Source of the DNA: Marinitenerispora sediminis
Lineage (GTDB): Bacteria; Actinomycetota; Actinomycetes; Streptosporangiales; Streptosporangiaceae
Length of the DNA: 60,601 nucleotides
Reading direction: 5' to 3'
NCBI RefSeq assembly: GCF_003336425.1
Contig: NZ_QEIO01000012.1
Location: forward strand, 1 to 60,601
Position 1 is the first letter of the stretch; the number at the start of each line of letters is the position of its first letter. The translations under genes were made by a program, and so were the position numbers. The notes under the pieces are model-generated. The model had not been told where the DNA came from. It ran no database searches and saw nothing but the letters and a program-made list of their open reading frames with translations. Shown piece by piece: positions 12,866 through 43,990 of the stretch.

Positions 12866-13768
12866 TCAGCCGACCGCCCGGCGCACGTGCCCGGCGATCA
12901 GGTCGTACATGCGCTCCGTCACCTCGCGGGTGCCGTGCATGATGTTGTACCCGTGGTCGACTCCGGCGACGTCGTGGTGCGCCACCAGCGCGCCGGCGGC
13001 CGCCAGGGACGCCGCGTAGGAGGCGCCCTCGTCGCGGAGCACGTCGAACTCGCAGGTGACGACGAGGGCGGGTGCGATGCCGGCGATGCCCTCGGCGTTG
13101 GTCCCCCAGGCCGGCGAGACCAGGCGGTCGCGCCGGGCGGCGGGGTCGGGCGCGTACGCGGCGTCGAAGATGTCGGTCATCCAGGGCCGGACCACCGGCC
13201 GGTCCGTCCGGCCGCGCTTGGCGCGGCCGGGGGTGACCAGGTCCAGCGGGGCGTAGTGCAGCATCTGCAGCGCGATGGCCGGCCCGCCGTTCTCCAGGGC
13301 GAGGCGCGCGGCCCCGGCGGCGAGCCCGCCGCCCGCGCTCTGGCCGCCCACGCACAGCCGGCGTCCGTCCCAGTCGCGCTCCGGCCGCGCGGCCCACGCC
13401 ACGACGTCGGACACCTGCTCGACGGCGACCGGGAAGCGGTGCCGCGGCGCGACGGAGTAGTCCACGCTGACCACGGCGACGCCGGCCCGCGCCGCCAGGA
13501 AGCGGCACCACGGGTCGTCCTGCTCGGGATGGGCGATGACGTATCCGCCGCCGTGGATGTTGACGTACACCGCCGGCCTGCCGGAGCCGGACGCCGCCGG
13601 GAGGTACACGGTGCACGCGACGTCCCCGTGGCGGGTCGGCACCCGGACCGCGGCCGTTCGGCCGGGGATCTCGGCGAAGCGGAGTTCCGGCTTCAGGCGG
13701 GGGACCATGACGGGCTTGAGGACCCACGCCGCTGCGGTGGCGACGGCCGGGACGGACAGGAGGGACAT
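12866..13768 (-). CDS. Alpha/beta hydrolase, hormone-sensitive-lipase type esterase
   Basis: 300 residues. The HSL/BD-FAE signature is complete: oxyanion motif HGGG at residues 72-75, nucleophile motif GQSAG with Ser144, an acid in CEFDVLRDEG and the catalytic His in VDHGYN near the C terminus. These enzymes hydrolyse short-chain esters or lactones. A hydrophobic N-terminal stretch (about residues 6-24) may be a membrane anchor rather than a cleaved signal. The ATG at 13768 is chosen because homology starts there; the longer frame is Arg/Pro-rich and unlike the family. Confidence 0.88.
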   Translation of the reverse strand: MSLLSVPAVATAAAWVLKPVMVPRLKPELRFAEIPGRTAAVRVPTRHGDVACTVYLPAASGSGRPAVYVNIHGGGYVIAHPEQDDPWCRFLAARAGVAVVSVDYSVAPRHRFPVAVEQVSDVVAWAARPERDWDGRRLCVGGQSAGGGLAAGAARLALENGGPAIALQMLHYAPLDLVTPGRAKRGRTDRPVVRPWMTDIFDAAYAPDPAARRDRLVSPAWGTNAEGIAGIAPALVVTCEFDVLRDEGASYAASLAAAGALVAHHDVAGVDHGYNIMHGTREVTERMYDLIAGHVRRAVG

Positions 13769-21164: not shown

Positions 21165-21330
21165 GGCCGCTCTGCCAGGATGGGACCCGGCGACCGGAGG
21201 AACACGGTGCGAATCCGTGGCTGTCCCGCAACTGTCAGGGGGGAGCCCGCCTCGAACGAGGCCACTGCCGCGCGAGCGGCGGGAAGGCCGGGGCGGGCGG
21301 CGAATCCCGAGCCAGGAGACTTCGCGCCGC
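21165..21330 (+). promoter_or_regulatory. Cobalamin riboswitch upstream of cobN
   Basis: The conserved B12-aptamer core is present in order: GGAACACGGTGCGAATCCG (21198-21216), GCTGTCCCGCAACTGT shortly after, and the B12 box GAGCCAGGAGAC (21309-21320). The box lies about 65 bases before the cobN start. Adenosylcobalamin or a related form binding here would reduce cobN expression. The GC-rich sequence between aptamer and start codon could sequester the ribosome site or form a terminator. Confidence 0.92.
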
Positions 21331-31596: not shown

Positions 31597-33579
31597 TCAG
31601 CTGGCGGACGGGTCGGGCTCGTCCTCGCCCAGCCGGTGGAGGGCGAAGTTGTCGAAGAACACGCAGGCATCCGCTCCGCCTCCGCCGCCGCGCTGCACGG
31701 TGATGCCGACCTGCCGGCCGTTCTCCGGGTCGTCCGGCAGCGGTTCGTTGTCGACGGCCTCCAGCACGTGCCGGCCGTTGACCCACAGGTTGATGGTCAT
31801 GGTCGCGGCCTCGCCGTCCAGCTCGCAGGACATCGCGAGGTTGTTGACCGCGCCCTCGTCGGTGTCGAAGCCGCGGACGCTGTCGGTGGCGGCCAGCTGG
31901 TTCCCCCCGTTGTCACCCGCGTCGCGCCGGACCTGCGCGCCGGTGCCGTCGAAGCGCACCAGCGCCTCGTAGCGGGATCCCGGACCGTCCTCCGAGCTGA
32001 GGTGGAAGCAGCGCAGGCCGAGCAGGCTGTAGTCGGGACCGTCCTGCGTGACGGCGTCCACGCTGACCAGGACCCGGTCGGGCCTCGGCTCGGTGACCGG
32101 AGCGTACTCGCCGCGGCTCTGCTGCTCGGCCGACACGCGCAGCGCGAACTGCTCCTCGTAGTAGCCGCCGTCGGAGGACTCGTCATCGGGGTTGAACACC
32201 GTGTTGGAGTACCAGCCAGTGTCCGTGCGGAGGAAGTCGTCGGTGTAGACGGAGGAGCCCTCCGGGACACCGGGGCCGCCCAGCAGCCGCACCCCTCCGA
32301 TGACGGCCGCGCCCACGACGATGACCGCGAGCGCGCTCGCGCCCACGACCCGGGCGCCGCCGGGCACCGCCGCGCCACCTGGGGGAGGCACGGGGGAACC
32401 GCCCCCGGGTGCGCCGCCCACCGGGGGCTGCGGGCCGGAGGTGGGCTGGTGGCCGAGGGAGTGCTGTGGGCCGGAGGTGGGCTGGTGGGCGCCGCCGAAT
32501 CCGGGCTGCGGACCGGAGGTGGGCTGGGGGTGCTGCGGCGGCGCGGAGCCGGTCCGGTCGGCCGGTCCGTCCGGCATCGCCCGGGTGTCCACCTCGGAGA
32601 GGTCCGCGGTGGGCGTACCGGAGTCGCCCGGTCCCGCGGCGGCTCCGGCCGCCCCCGCGAGCCCGGCGGCCGCGAGGTCGGCCGGGCGGGCGGTCGACGG
32701 CGGGGTCCAGGAGCGGACCACCGTCTGGTCGACCACGGACTCGGCCGGATCCTCCTGGCCGAACAGCCGGTTGAGGAGCTGCTGCGCGGTGGGTCGGCGG
32801 GCGGGGTCCTTCTCCAGCGCCGGGAGTACGAGGTCGCGCATCTCGGGGTCGAGGCCGCCGAGGTCGGGCTCGCCGGAGGAGATGCGGTGCAGGACCGCGG
32901 GAACGGTCGGCGCGTCGAACGGCGCCTTGCCGGTGCCCGCGTAGGCGACCAGGCAGCCCCAGGAGAAGATGTCGGAGGCCGGGGTGACGTCCTGGCCGAG
33001 GACCAGTTCGGGGGCCAGGTAGGCGGGGGTGCCCATGAGCTGGCTGGACCGGGTGACCGCGCTGTCGTCGTCCATGGCGCGGGCGATGCCGAAGTCGATC
33101 ACCTTGGGACCGACGGAGGAGAGCAGGACGTTCGCGGGCTTCAGGTCCCGGTGCACGATCCCGGTGCCGTGGATGGCGGCCAGCGCCGCGGCGACCCCCA
33201 TGGCCAGGCTCTCCAGGGTGCCGCCGCGCATGGGGCCGTCGGCGGCGACGGCCTGGGCCAGGTTGGGGCCGGGCACGTACTCGGAGACGATGAACAGCGG
33301 GTCGCCGTCCAGCCGGGCGTCGAGGACGGCGGCGGTGGAGAACCGCGCCACCCGGCGGGCGGAGCGCACCTCGCGCGCGAAGCGCCGGCGGAAGTCCTCG
33401 TCGTCGCTGAGGTCGGGATGGATGAGCTTCACCGCGACGAGACGCCCCGAGGTGTCCTCGGCCAGGTAGACGGTGCCCATGCCGCCCCGTCCCAGCCGAC
33501 CCAGGAGACGGTAGCCGCCGAGCTCGTGCGGGTCGCCGGTGCGGAGGGGCTTGATGCGCTCGTGCCCGTTGGACGTCAC
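31597..33579 (-). CDS. Serine/threonine protein kinase with extracytoplasmic domain
   Basis: 660 residues. The N-terminal kinase domain (about 20-275) has GRGGMGTVY, catalytic VHRDLKPANV, DFGIA and the APE-type motif (LAPEL). Then comes a Pro/Gly/Gln-rich linker with repeated TSGPQ units (QPTSGPQP, HQPTSGPQHS and so on), a membrane helix near residue 405 (ALAVIVVGAAVIGGV) and an extracellular domain of about 230 residues resembling a LamG/jelly-roll sandwich (WYSNTVFNPDD, then C-x-FFDNFAL near the end). It is a receptor-like Hanks kinase without PASTA repeats. GTG start. Divergent from the DUF6504 gene. Confidence 0.92.
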   Translation of the reverse strand: MTSNGHERIKPLRTGDPHELGGYRLLGRLGRGGMGTVYLAEDTSGRLVAVKLIHPDLSDDEDFRRRFAREVRSARRVARFSTAAVLDARLDGDPLFIVSEYVPGPNLAQAVAADGPMRGGTLESLAMGVAAALAAIHGTGIVHRDLKPANVLLSSVGPKVIDFGIARAMDDDSAVTRSSQLMGTPAYLAPELVLGQDVTPASDIFSWGCLVAYAGTGKAPFDAPTVPAVLHRISSGEPDLGGLDPEMRDLVLPALEKDPARRPTAQQLLNRLFGQEDPAESVVDQTVVRSWTPPSTARPADLAAAGLAGAAGAAAGPGDSGTPTADLSEVDTRAMPDGPADRTGSAPPQHPQPTSGPQPGFGGAHQPTSGPQHSLGHQPTSGPQPPVGGAPGGGSPVPPPGGAAVPGGARVVGASALAVIVVGAAVIGGVRLLGGPGVPEGSSVYTDDFLRTDTGWYSNTVFNPDDESSDGGYYEEQFALRVSAEQQSRGEYAPVTEPRPDRVLVSVDAVTQDGPDYSLLGLRCFHLSSEDGPGSRYEALVRFDGTGAQVRRDAGDNGGNQLAATDSVRGFDTDEGAVNNLAMSCELDGEAATMTINLWVNGRHVLEAVDNEPLPDDPENGRQVGITVQRGGGGGADACVFFDNFALHRLGEDEPDPSAS

Positions 33580-33910
33580 AGTGCTGGGTTCCTTCGTGGA
33601 TCGCGTGATTCGCGCCTCATAGCGTACCGAGGTCCACCGACCGGCCCACAGGTCGCGGGCGTGGCGGGGCGGAGGGCGGCAGCGGCGGCGGGCCGCCGCG
33701 TGGCCCGCCGCGGCGGCCGGGGCGGGTGGATTCCGGCCGGGCCGAACCGCCCGGGAACGCCCGCCCGCCGACGTCGACGGCTATAATGGGTACACATGTT
33801 CGAATCGAGTTTCGCCTGCTCTTCCCCGCGGGCGCTGTCCGCGCGTGCGCGGCCGGAGGCGGCCGCGCGAGAGGTCACTGCTACGAGGTCACCGATCGAG
33901 GGGAGTCACG
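33580..33910. other. Divergent intergenic region kinase/DUF6504
   Basis: No gene supported. Carries the TATAAT box and LexA-like box of the DUF6504 gene (listed separately) and a leader of just over 100 bases. Confidence 0.5.
33782..33803 (+). promoter_or_regulatory. TATAAT promoter box overlapping a LexA-like SOS box
   Basis: A perfect TATAAT (33782-33787) is followed at once by GGGTACACATGTTCGA (33788-33803). The actinobacterial LexA consensus is TCGAAC-N4-GTTCGA: the right half-site is perfect and the left matches in three of six positions (the centre ACACAT fits known boxes). The box covers the expected transcription start, where a repressor would block initiation. Confidence 0.5.
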
Positions 33911-34180
33911 GTGGGGCGGGTCTACGGCGTGCCCATCACGGTCTGGGAGAACGAGGGGCGCCCGGTGCGCTTCCGGTGGGACGGCAGGCTCTACACCGTC
34001 CACCGCATCCTCGACCACTGGATCACGCTGCGCTCCGACTGGACGCCGGCTGCCGAGGGCGGCCTGCCGGAGCGGCGGCACTGGCGGGTGCAGGCCGGCT
34101 CGGACCGGGCGTTCGGGGTCTACGAGATCCGCCATGAGACCGCGGGCGACACCTGGCTGCTCGCCCGGGTGTGGGACTGA
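33911..34180 (+). CDS. DUF6504-family small protein, possibly SOS-controlled
   Basis: 89 residues from a GTG with GGGGAG upstream. The pattern VRFRWDGRLYTVHRILDHW, HWRVQAGSD and a closing WLLARVWD is that of DUF6504, a family of small actinobacterial proteins which, as far as I recall, often lies beside translesion polymerase genes. Function unknown. No polymerase gene is next to it here, but the upstream LexA-like box fits a DNA-damage link. A terminator follows. Confidence 0.72.
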   Translation: MGRVYGVPITVWENEGRPVRFRWDGRLYTVHRILDHWITLRSDWTPAAEGGLPERRHWRVQAGSDRAFGVYEIRHETAGDTWLLARVWD

Positions 34181-34202
34181 GCGGGGGAACGACCCGGCGC
34201 CG

Positions 34203-34233
34203 CGGCTCCGGCGGGCGGACCCCGCCGGAGCCG
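34203..34233. terminator. Bidirectional hairpin terminator
   Basis: A perfect 13-bp stem (CGGCTCCGGCGGG at 34203-34215 with 34221-34233) and CGGAC loop, between the DUF6504 gene and the APC permease gene. Confidence 0.7.
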
Positions 34234-34301
34234 TCCGGCCCCCGTCCACGGCGTCCAGCGTCCCGCGGACGGGGCTGGGGGAAGCGTGTTGCTTGCTGCG
34301 T

Positions 34302-34391
34302 GCCACGGAGGCGTGCTGTCCGTTCCGCGCCACGGAGCCCCGCTGTCCGTTGCTCGCCACGGAGGCGTGCTATCCGTTCCTCGCCACGGAG
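34302..34391. repeat. 27-bp tandem repeat at the 3' end of the permease gene
   Basis: The core GCCACGGAG recurs at 34302, 34329, 34356 and 34383, exactly 27 bases apart, with the intervening sequence also conserved (GCGTGCTGTCCGTT-like). On the minus strand each unit encodes nine residues of the type SVARNGQHA in the permease frame. The permease stop codon lies inside the repeat. Confidence 0.85.
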
Positions 34392-35788
34392 GCGGTCAGC
34401 CGAACCTCGGCGTCCGGCCCCGGTGCCACGCGCGGCAGCCGCCACATCAGCAGGGCTCCCGCCAACCACCAGGCGCCCACGATGCTCCACTCATACGGCC
34501 AGGACAGCGCGGCCGGCATCCCCGGCAGGTACAGTGCGGCCAGTGCGAGGCTCAGCACCAGTGCGAGCACGCCCACGGCGTTCCCGGCCGGCACCCGGAA
34601 CGGCCGCGCCATCTCCGGCTCCCGGCGGCGCAGCGCCAGGAACGAGAGCGCCACCACCACGTAGGAGACGACGATGTTGATCCCGCCGGCGTTCACCAGC
34701 CAGGTCAGCATCCGGTCGCCGAACAGCGGGGCCAGGACCGACAGCCCGCCGATGAACAGCAGCGCGTTGGACGGCGTCCGGAACCGGGGGTGCAGCCGGG
34801 CGAACCAGGCGGGCAGCATGCCGGAGACCGCCATGGCGTAGAGCAGCCGGCTCGCACCGATCAGGAAGGCGTTCCAGCTCGTGACGATGCCGGCGATCCC
34901 CCCGATCACCAGCACGGTGCCCATCGCGGAGCTGTTCCAGAGCGCTGCCATGCCGTCCGCGGAGGCCAGTTGCGACGCGGCCAGCTCCCCGGCCGGCAGC
35001 GACGAGGCCACGGTCAGCATGACGAGCACGTACCACGCGATCGCGCACCCCACCGACACCACCAGCACCGCGCCCACCTGGCGCTGCGGCAGCCGGATCT
35101 CCTCGGCCGACTGAGGGATGACGTCGAAGCCGACGAACAGGAACGGGGTGGCGACCAGCACCGCGATCAGGCCGGGCGCCCCGCCCTCGAACAGCGGGCG
35201 CAGGTTGCCGGCCGAGCCGCCGACGGCCGACCCGAGCAGCAGCGCGGCGCCCACGGCGACCAGGAACAGCACGGCGACGGTCTGGAACACGCTGGCCGGC
35301 CGGATGCCGACGTAGTTGACCGCCGTGATCGCCACCGCCGCGCCCACCCCGATCGCCACCCACGAGGCGTGCACGTCGTCGCCGGCGACCGTCCACAGGT
35401 GGCCGGCCCGCAGCTCCGGCAGCAGGTAGCTCACCGTCTCGGGCAGCGCCACCGCCTCGAACGCCACCACGGTGAGATAGCCCAGCACGATGCCCCACGA
35501 GGCGATGAAGGCCCCGTGGGAGCCCAGCCCCCGCAGGGCGTAGTGGTGCTCGCCGCCCGCCCGCGGCATGGCGGCGACGAGTTCGGCGTAGGTGAGCCCG
35601 ACCAGGGTGACGATGGTGCCGCCGATCACGAACGCCAGCGCCGCCCCGAGACTGCCGGCGCCGCTGATGAAGTCTCCGGTCAGCACCACCCAGCCGAAGC
35701 CGATCATCGCGCCGAACGCGAGTGCGAGTACGTCGGCGCGCCCGAGGACACGCACGAAGCCGTCGTTGCCATCACTTTCCGTCTTCAA
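34370..35788 (-). CDS. APC-family amino acid permease
   Basis: 472 residues with about 12 membrane helices. The first helix carries the APC substrate-binding signature (GAMIGFGWVVLTGDF); GFDVIPQSAEEI in the middle is also typical. It should import an amino acid or amine with cations. The start is a TTG with GGGAGG upstream. The C terminus, SVARNG, is the first unit of a 27-bp tandem repeat; a TAG in that unit stands where sister units have CAG, so the chain stops within the repeat. Confidence 0.9.
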   Translation of the reverse strand: MKTESDGNDGFVRVLGRADVLALAFGAMIGFGWVVLTGDFISGAGSLGAALAFVIGGTIVTLVGLTYAELVAAMPRAGGEHHYALRGLGSHGAFIASWGIVLGYLTVVAFEAVALPETVSYLLPELRAGHLWTVAGDDVHASWVAIGVGAAVAITAVNYVGIRPASVFQTVAVLFLVAVGAALLLGSAVGGSAGNLRPLFEGGAPGLIAVLVATPFLFVGFDVIPQSAEEIRLPQRQVGAVLVVSVGCAIAWYVLVMLTVASSLPAGELAASQLASADGMAALWNSSAMGTVLVIGGIAGIVTSWNAFLIGASRLLYAMAVSGMLPAWFARLHPRFRTPSNALLFIGGLSVLAPLFGDRMLTWLVNAGGINIVVSYVVVALSFLALRRREPEMARPFRVPAGNAVGVLALVLSLALAALYLPGMPAALSWPYEWSIVGAWWLAGALLMWRLPRVAPGPDAEVRLTASVARNG

Positions 35789-43833: not shown

Positions 43834-43990
43834 GATGCTGAGTCCGGTGCCGACGCAGGAACCCGGTGCGAATCCGGGGCGGTCCCGCCACTGTCACCAG
43901 GGAGCGAACCCGCACGGACGCCACTGCCGGCACTGGCCGGTGGGAAGGCGCGGGGGAGCGGCGATCTGGGAGCCAGGACACTGCGCGGCA
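43834..43990 (+). promoter_or_regulatory. Cobalamin riboswitch upstream of the ChlI/ChlD-type gene
   Basis: Core elements in order: GGAACCCGGTGCGAATCCGG (43858-43877), GGTCCCGCCACTGT just after, and the B12 box GGGAGCCAGGACAC (43968-43981). It ends about 50 bases before the GTG of the chelatase gene. It differs from the cobN copy in P1 and the peripheral stems, so the two are not recent duplicates. Confidence 0.92.

Follow-up and report, generated by a model that had tools for sequence, protein, structure and literature searches.

DnaE2 mutasomes drive damage-induced mutation in actinobacteria, and the stand-alone ImuB-C partner of DnaE2 is, to our knowledge, little studied. As reported by Aravind et al. 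(2013, PMC3765255), the ImuB-C superfamily occurs also as a stand-alone protein that adjoins DinB, Ku/ligase, and other repair genes, and damaged-DNA binding was proposed for it. A DnaE2-[ImuB-C] module is known in Actinobacteria (PMC12926913, 2026; PMC6511836, 2019), and the partnership of the two proteins is thus already known in outline. For Deinococcus species other than D. taeanensis, the arrangement lexA-imuY-imuB-C-dnaE2 has been published (PMC8072749), and a LexA regulon that includes dnaE2 has been described in Streptomyces venezuelae (PMC9380542).

Here, we compared these systems with a DUF6504 gene located in a 60,601-nucleotide stretch of Marinitenerispora sediminis DNA (the window). 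The DUF6504 protein shares with the stand-alone ImuB-C (PMC3765255) a small beta-rich domain of approximately 80–90 amino acids, kept tryptophans, an SOS context, a match to the ImuB C-terminus, and its occurrence alone. In contrast to the published cases, which are described as belonging to repair operons, the genome carries two unlinked copies, and the window copy is not beside a polymerase gene. The Deinococcus cassette likewise combines an SOS-controlled stand-alone ImuB-C with DnaE2, and the corresponding gene on the D. taeanensis plasmid is annotated as DUF6504; however, that cassette joins lexA and a Y-family protein gene in the same operon, whereas single genes are found here. The actinobacterial module (PMC12926913, PMC6511836) consists of the same two genes, which form an operon in relatives of the family, but in the window's clade they are separate, with promoter, LexA box, and leader at both, and several relatives are without DnaE2. 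As for the S. venezuelae regulon (PMC9380542), the box type (tCGAAC-N4-GNNCGa), the targeting of dnaE2, and the tolerance of a GTAC left half are common to both systems, although the selected-gene table of that paper includes no DUF6504 gene. We consider it probable, at roughly 75%, that the window gene encodes a stand-alone ImuB-C, is repressed by LexA, and was split from a DUF6504-dnaE2 operon with a shared control module. As far as we found, the separation of DUF6504 and dnaE2 with the control module retained has no earlier description; it would be a case of operon partners that parted yet kept one regulatory module.

The features of the locus are listed in Table 1. The translated protein matched PF20114 with an E-value of 2e-12 and 47.7 bits, above the Pfam cut-off of 24.2. 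GTG 33911, preceded by the Shine-Dalgarno (SD) sequence, is most likely the start codon, and a leader of approximately 115 bases lies ahead of it. A leaderless open reading frame from ATG 33796 within the box was rejected, as neither its start codon nor its frame was conserved across orthologues. The gene is flanked upstream by a divergent kinase gene (31597–33579, minus strand) and downstream by a convergent permease gene (34370–35788, minus strand); therefore, it is very likely transcribed alone, which bore out the sequence-only reading. A scan of the region for T-run terminators found none, and the hairpin between the convergent genes is possibly the end of the transcript. A 27-bp tandem repeat of 3.4 copies (34302–34394) is also located between DUF6504 and the permease gene, and two cobalamin riboswitches are present elsewhere in the window on the plus strand (21198–21321 and 43856–43983).

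Table 1 Features of the DUF6504 locus in the window.
Feature	Position	Strand	Basis
-10 element TATAAT	33782–33787	+	Read from sequence; TAnnnT or similar at the same place in orthologues
LexA/SOS box GGGTACACATGTTCGA	33788–33803	+	13/16 positions overall, 9/12 informative; directly after TATAAT
5'-leader hairpin: stem GCCTGC (33814–33819)/GCGGGC (33828–33833), loop TCTTCCCC (33820–33827)	33814–33833	+	Alignment and covariation
Shine-Dalgarno sequence GAGGGGAG	33898–33905	+	Read from sequence
DUF6504 gene (PF20114), 89 aa	33911–34180	+	GTG start to TGA; profile match and family alignment
G+C-rich strong hairpin between the convergent genes	34202–34236		Fold of −37.5 kcal/mol for 34196–34240; no T run

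The second DUF6504 copy of the genome (28.1 bits against PF20114, cut-off 24.2) was identified on another contig (G000:C387:21263-21551; L002:1442-1731). A sequence search of the PDB with DUF6504 gave no match, none was found in the phage collection, and a related-locus search in the genome contig collection returned a single distant match in Clostridia. A literature search on DUF6504 by name had no matches. Single-sequence AlphaFold2 proposed five strands at low confidence (pLDDT 50), too weak for a fold search.

We attempted to relate DUF6504 to ImuB-C on the basis of sequence. The C-terminus of a Sphingomonas ImuB (amino acids 435–497) matched PF20114 with an E-value of 3.3e-4 and 21.3 bits, below the cut-off of 24.2, and tblastn combined with Pfam placed DUF6504 at the C-terminus of this Y-family protein, whose gene stands in an imuA-imuB-dnaE2 arrangement. 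Weak matches to four annotated Y-family polymerases were also obtained by tblastn with DUF6504. On a D. taeanensis plasmid, lexA, a Y-family polymerase gene, a gene annotated as DUF6504, and a PHP gene stand in a row; this row is the arrangement published for other Deinococcus (PMC8072749) and agrees with the ImuB-C superfamily (PMC3765255). In our reading of the combined evidence, DUF6504 and ImuB-C are probably the same family. The protein would accordingly be an accessory of error-prone translesion synthesis that helps recruit a polymerase to lesions.

The promoter region was then examined. A TATAAT hexamer abutting a 16-base sequence that matches the actinobacterial SOS box at 13 of 16 positions, with a perfect GTTCGA half, had been described from the letters, and all of these features were confirmed. 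Compared with TCGAACACATGTTCGA, the box has mismatches at positions 1, 2, and 4, and its right half (33798–33803) is perfect. It overlaps the presumed transcription start, and a -35/-10 scan yielded no sigma-70-like -35 partner for the TATAAT. Scores were counted over the 12 informative positions of the palindrome TCGAAC-N4-GTTCGA. At least 9/12 was reached in approximately 13% of dinucleotide-shuffled upstream regions of this size and at least 11/12 in fewer than 0.2%, and the genome contains 503 sites with up to two mismatches to the SOS box, compared with 169 for the reversed pattern. The window site by itself is a weak match and is not significant. Since a lone match carries little weight at this frequency, a comparison with relatives was needed to settle the question of LexA control.

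Upstream regions were compared in three groups. Group A comprised 31 direct orthologues of the window gene, group B comprised 30 genes that are second copies or resemble them, and group C comprised 20 single-copy genes of the family. In group A, 31/31 had the box immediately after a hexamer resembling a -10 element, with a score of 11/12 in 18 cases and 10/12 in 13. Group B contained it in 27 of 30 (17 at 12/12 and 10 at 11/12), mostly in the layout of box, TAnnnT, and an apparently leaderless GTG, and group C in 20/20 (one at 12/12, 13 at 11/12, and six at 10/12). A class-wide survey found 119 of 297 genomes above the Pfam cut-off for DUF6504; in all 30 loci taken from other families the box was present (26 at 12/12 and four at 11/12) and was the sole such site in each locus (up to approximately 3.5 kb). 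The second copy of the genome has the perfect palindrome TCGAACATGTGTTCGA directly upstream, followed by TAGAAT as the -10 and an apparently leaderless GTG, a layout common to its orthologues. The scan of other DUF6504 genes for the same box, named earlier as a check, thus favoured the proposed control. Absence of the box from orthologues, named as a refuting outcome, was not observed, and its conservation raises the window site well above what chance would give: predicted LexA control of the window gene and of its relatives across the class is well supported, and the box of this putative stand-alone ImuB-C gene has been kept across much of the class.

A weight matrix built from the relatives, with the window copy left out, gave the window box 21.2 bits, 6 bits more than any other site in the window; this score is not independent of the orthologues from which the matrix was made. 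Within its orthologue group the window box is nevertheless the lowest-scoring one (9/12; left half GGGTAC), and LexA may therefore bind less tightly here. This low score, together with the frequency of 9/12 in shuffled regions, would fit a chance or decayed box, in which case the window copy would have lost effective LexA control and would be read from a constitutive TATAAT promoter. We regard this as improbable, as the right half is perfect and the placement with respect to the -10 has not changed. In addition, five orthologues (L104, L117, L118, L119, and L121) have the GTAC left half, as do the dnaE2 leaders in the window's clade, and the S. venezuelae dnaE2 site TCGTACGTACGTTC, which has this same half, was validated for LexA in vitro (PMC9380542). 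In the LexA-repressed reading that we prefer, LexA would occupy the -10/+1 region and repress DUF6504, and RecA-driven cleavage of LexA upon DNA damage would switch the gene on.

The LexA regulon of the genome is consistent with this box type. The single lexA gene (C409:12896-13084, minus strand) is preceded by two boxes, TCAAACAAACGTTCGA at 13368 and the perfect TCGAACGGGCGTTCGA at 13437; recA and uvrA, both identified by sequence, lie behind TCGAACACAGGTTCGG and TCGAACAGCTGTTCGG, respectively. All three genes carry the same type of box as DUF6504. Only four perfect SOS palindromes exist in the 6.0-Mb genome, and one of them precedes the second DUF6504 copy. Two further perfect palindromes are located at G000:C416:4910 and C114:17268, where the nearest genes (aminotransferase, MauE-like, BldD-like, and MTHFR) are not usual SOS genes.

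RecA-independent PafBC promoters have the consensus TTGTCRGTG-N8-TAnnnT. This type was absent in the window and its family; the 31 orthologues gave a single strict match, which does not adjoin the box. In the other families, it was observed upstream of DUF6504 in 9/30 loci under a strict and 19/30 under a loose definition. Many DUF6504 promoters of these loci (L205-L234) have a PafBC-like TGTCGGTG-N8-TAnnnT that immediately precedes the LexA box, and this motif combination suggests dual DNA-damage control there.

The relation of DUF6504 to dnaE2 was investigated in the family and beyond. In the three family members examined (L156, L158, and L163), DUF6504 is followed by a gene for an error-prone DnaE2-type protein of 1140–1170 amino acids, and the two genes overlap in two of the three. 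Outside the window's clade, dnaE2 adjoins DUF6504 in most genomes having dnaE2. In L205, L207, and L221, all of them loci of other families, DUF6504 is followed by a gene for a SAV_6107-type HEPN protein (PF18726) and then by a further gene. In L205 and L221 this further gene was recognised as the beginning of a DnaE2-like gene with its PHP part; the HEPN protein may belong to the mutasome as an additional component. The link of DUF6504 to translesion polymerases made in the sequence-only reading was therefore right in kind, as the gene lies ahead of dnaE2 in relatives and its product matches the ImuB C-terminus. Adjacency to a Y-family polymerase gene was rejected: in single-contig relatives, the best-scoring one lies at least several hundred kilobases away.

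In the genome of the window, dnaE2 (C136:1346-4675) is not adjacent to either DUF6504 copy (C14 and C387). Its upstream region reads TATAAT-CCGTACATAAGTTCGA-TTTCGGCCAG-TCTTCCCC; as the unlinked dnaE2 repeats the promoter, LexA box, and leader motif of DUF6504, the DUF6504-dnaE2 pair looks co-regulated although separated. These arrangements suggest an ancestral DUF6504-dnaE2 operon headed by DUF6504, which would have split in the window's clade with both genes keeping a TATAAT-like -10, the LexA box, and a short CUUCCCC leader element. The DUF6504 protein would most likely bind DnaE2 or, in genomes that lack it, a different polymerase.

Because the gene stands alone, its SOS control had been taken in the sequence-only reading to point to an independent DNA-damage role. 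In such a case DUF6504 would act without DnaE2, for example with a single Y-family polymerase or on damaged DNA, and the separation would reflect a new role. This part of the reading stood only partly. Seven relatives (G006, G010, G018, G023, G040, G042, and G044) have two DUF6504 genes, whose promoters keep the LexA box, and no DnaE2-like gene, only DnaE1-like matches of about 28–31%; the repair-gene neighbourhoods and the damaged-DNA binding proposed for stand-alone ImuB-C (PMC3765255) agree with independent action as well. On the other hand, the genome has its own dnaE2 with the same module, and the 500 bases before the match to its sole Y-family polymerase gene contain no box of at least 10/12. 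We thus consider an independent role somewhat unlikely here and retain the partnership with DnaE2 as the preferred reading. Relatives with DUF6504 but without DnaE2 are natural material for separating the roles of the two proteins.

Between the box and the start codon, the sequence CTTCCCC was conserved in group A in 23 of the 32 leaders, the window among them, and in 20/20 group C leaders, one of which (L164) has the variant TCTCCCC. In DUF6504 leaders it is usually the loop of a six-pair stem, and the stem shows compensatory changes, e.g., GTCTGC/GCAGAC, GGCCG/CGGCC, and CACCCG/CGGGTG. In group A, 95% of stem cells were paired, compared with 24–42% when the partner was slid by 1–3 columns; the corresponding values in group C were 99% and 33–47%. 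In whole-leader folds, alternative pairings compete with this small hairpin and are often favoured over it, and its existence therefore rests on covariation and not on energy. A covariance model of the group A leaders (R1), with the window in its training set, scored the window at 31.6 bits as the only significant site in the genome; the next-best site (24.6 bits), within a coding sequence resembling lgt, was rejected as chance. No Rfam family matched the leader (33600–34000) up to an E-value of 5, and a literature search on the leader element, dnaE2, and structured RNA had no matches. As far as we found, the leader hairpin with the invariant CUUCCCC loop is new.

The element is missing in nine of the 32 group A genes, four of which are among the seven relatives without DnaE2, and all group A relatives with an observed dnaE2 of the DUF6504-linked type have it. 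Its presence appears to track that of DnaE2, which is only suggestive given the small numbers and related species.

A composite pattern, GNAC-N4-GTTCGA-N(2-28)-CTTCCCC, was searched for in the genomes. In the own genome it occurs at exactly two places, the window DUF6504 gene and dnaE2. Among the matches listed for 110 family genomes, it was found at 86 places, compared with four in the listed reversed controls; 58 of the 86 were at DUF6504, five at dnaE2 by coordinates, and three more at dnaE2 on inspection. One further listed place (G007, L280:2911), with a LexA box and CTTCCCC hairpin, lies before an imuA' gene (NCBIfam NF058630, E-value 7e-41) followed by an imuB-like gene. L292, a DUF6504 locus of a different family within the order, has the pattern as well. 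In the imuA'-type dnaE2 regions of other genomes, plain boxes were found and the element was absent. Another site with a box and CTTCCCC hairpin (G048, L282:2862) has the appearance of an imuA' locus that has degenerated.

Through the leader element, DUF6504 and dnaE2 probably share a further layer of control that acts after transcription, a possible layer that is directly testable. We tentatively propose that mutagenesis genes of the order share a CUUCCCC leader RNA recognised by one and the same protein or small RNA acting in trans. It would serve as a second checkpoint after SOS derepression, restraining the error-prone polymerase and its ImuB-C partner. Each gene would have retained the element when the operon came apart, and at least one imuA'-imuB cassette (G007, L280) is preceded by it too. 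Several dnaE2 leaders keep the CUUCCCC sequence but have a weak stem, as would be seen if the element were a DNA site for a second regulator or a promoter-proximal pause; the compensatory changes in DUF6504 leaders and the excess of pairing over the slid controls (95% compared with 24–42%) make a DNA site unlikely. We likewise doubt a cis switch, in which the loop would pair with the SD and block translation until released. The loop CUUCCCC is complementary to the SD sequence GGGGAG, and the predicted probability of this pairing was 0.79 in the window, with means of 0.45 in group A and 0.70 in the single-copy group. However, the duplex energy was no better than with shuffled SD regions, and permuting CUUCCCC left the SD pairing unchanged. 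SD sequestration was rejected as the reason for the invariant loop, since the pairing is not sequence-specific; this favours recognition of the loop in trans, possibly by the DUF6504 protein itself.
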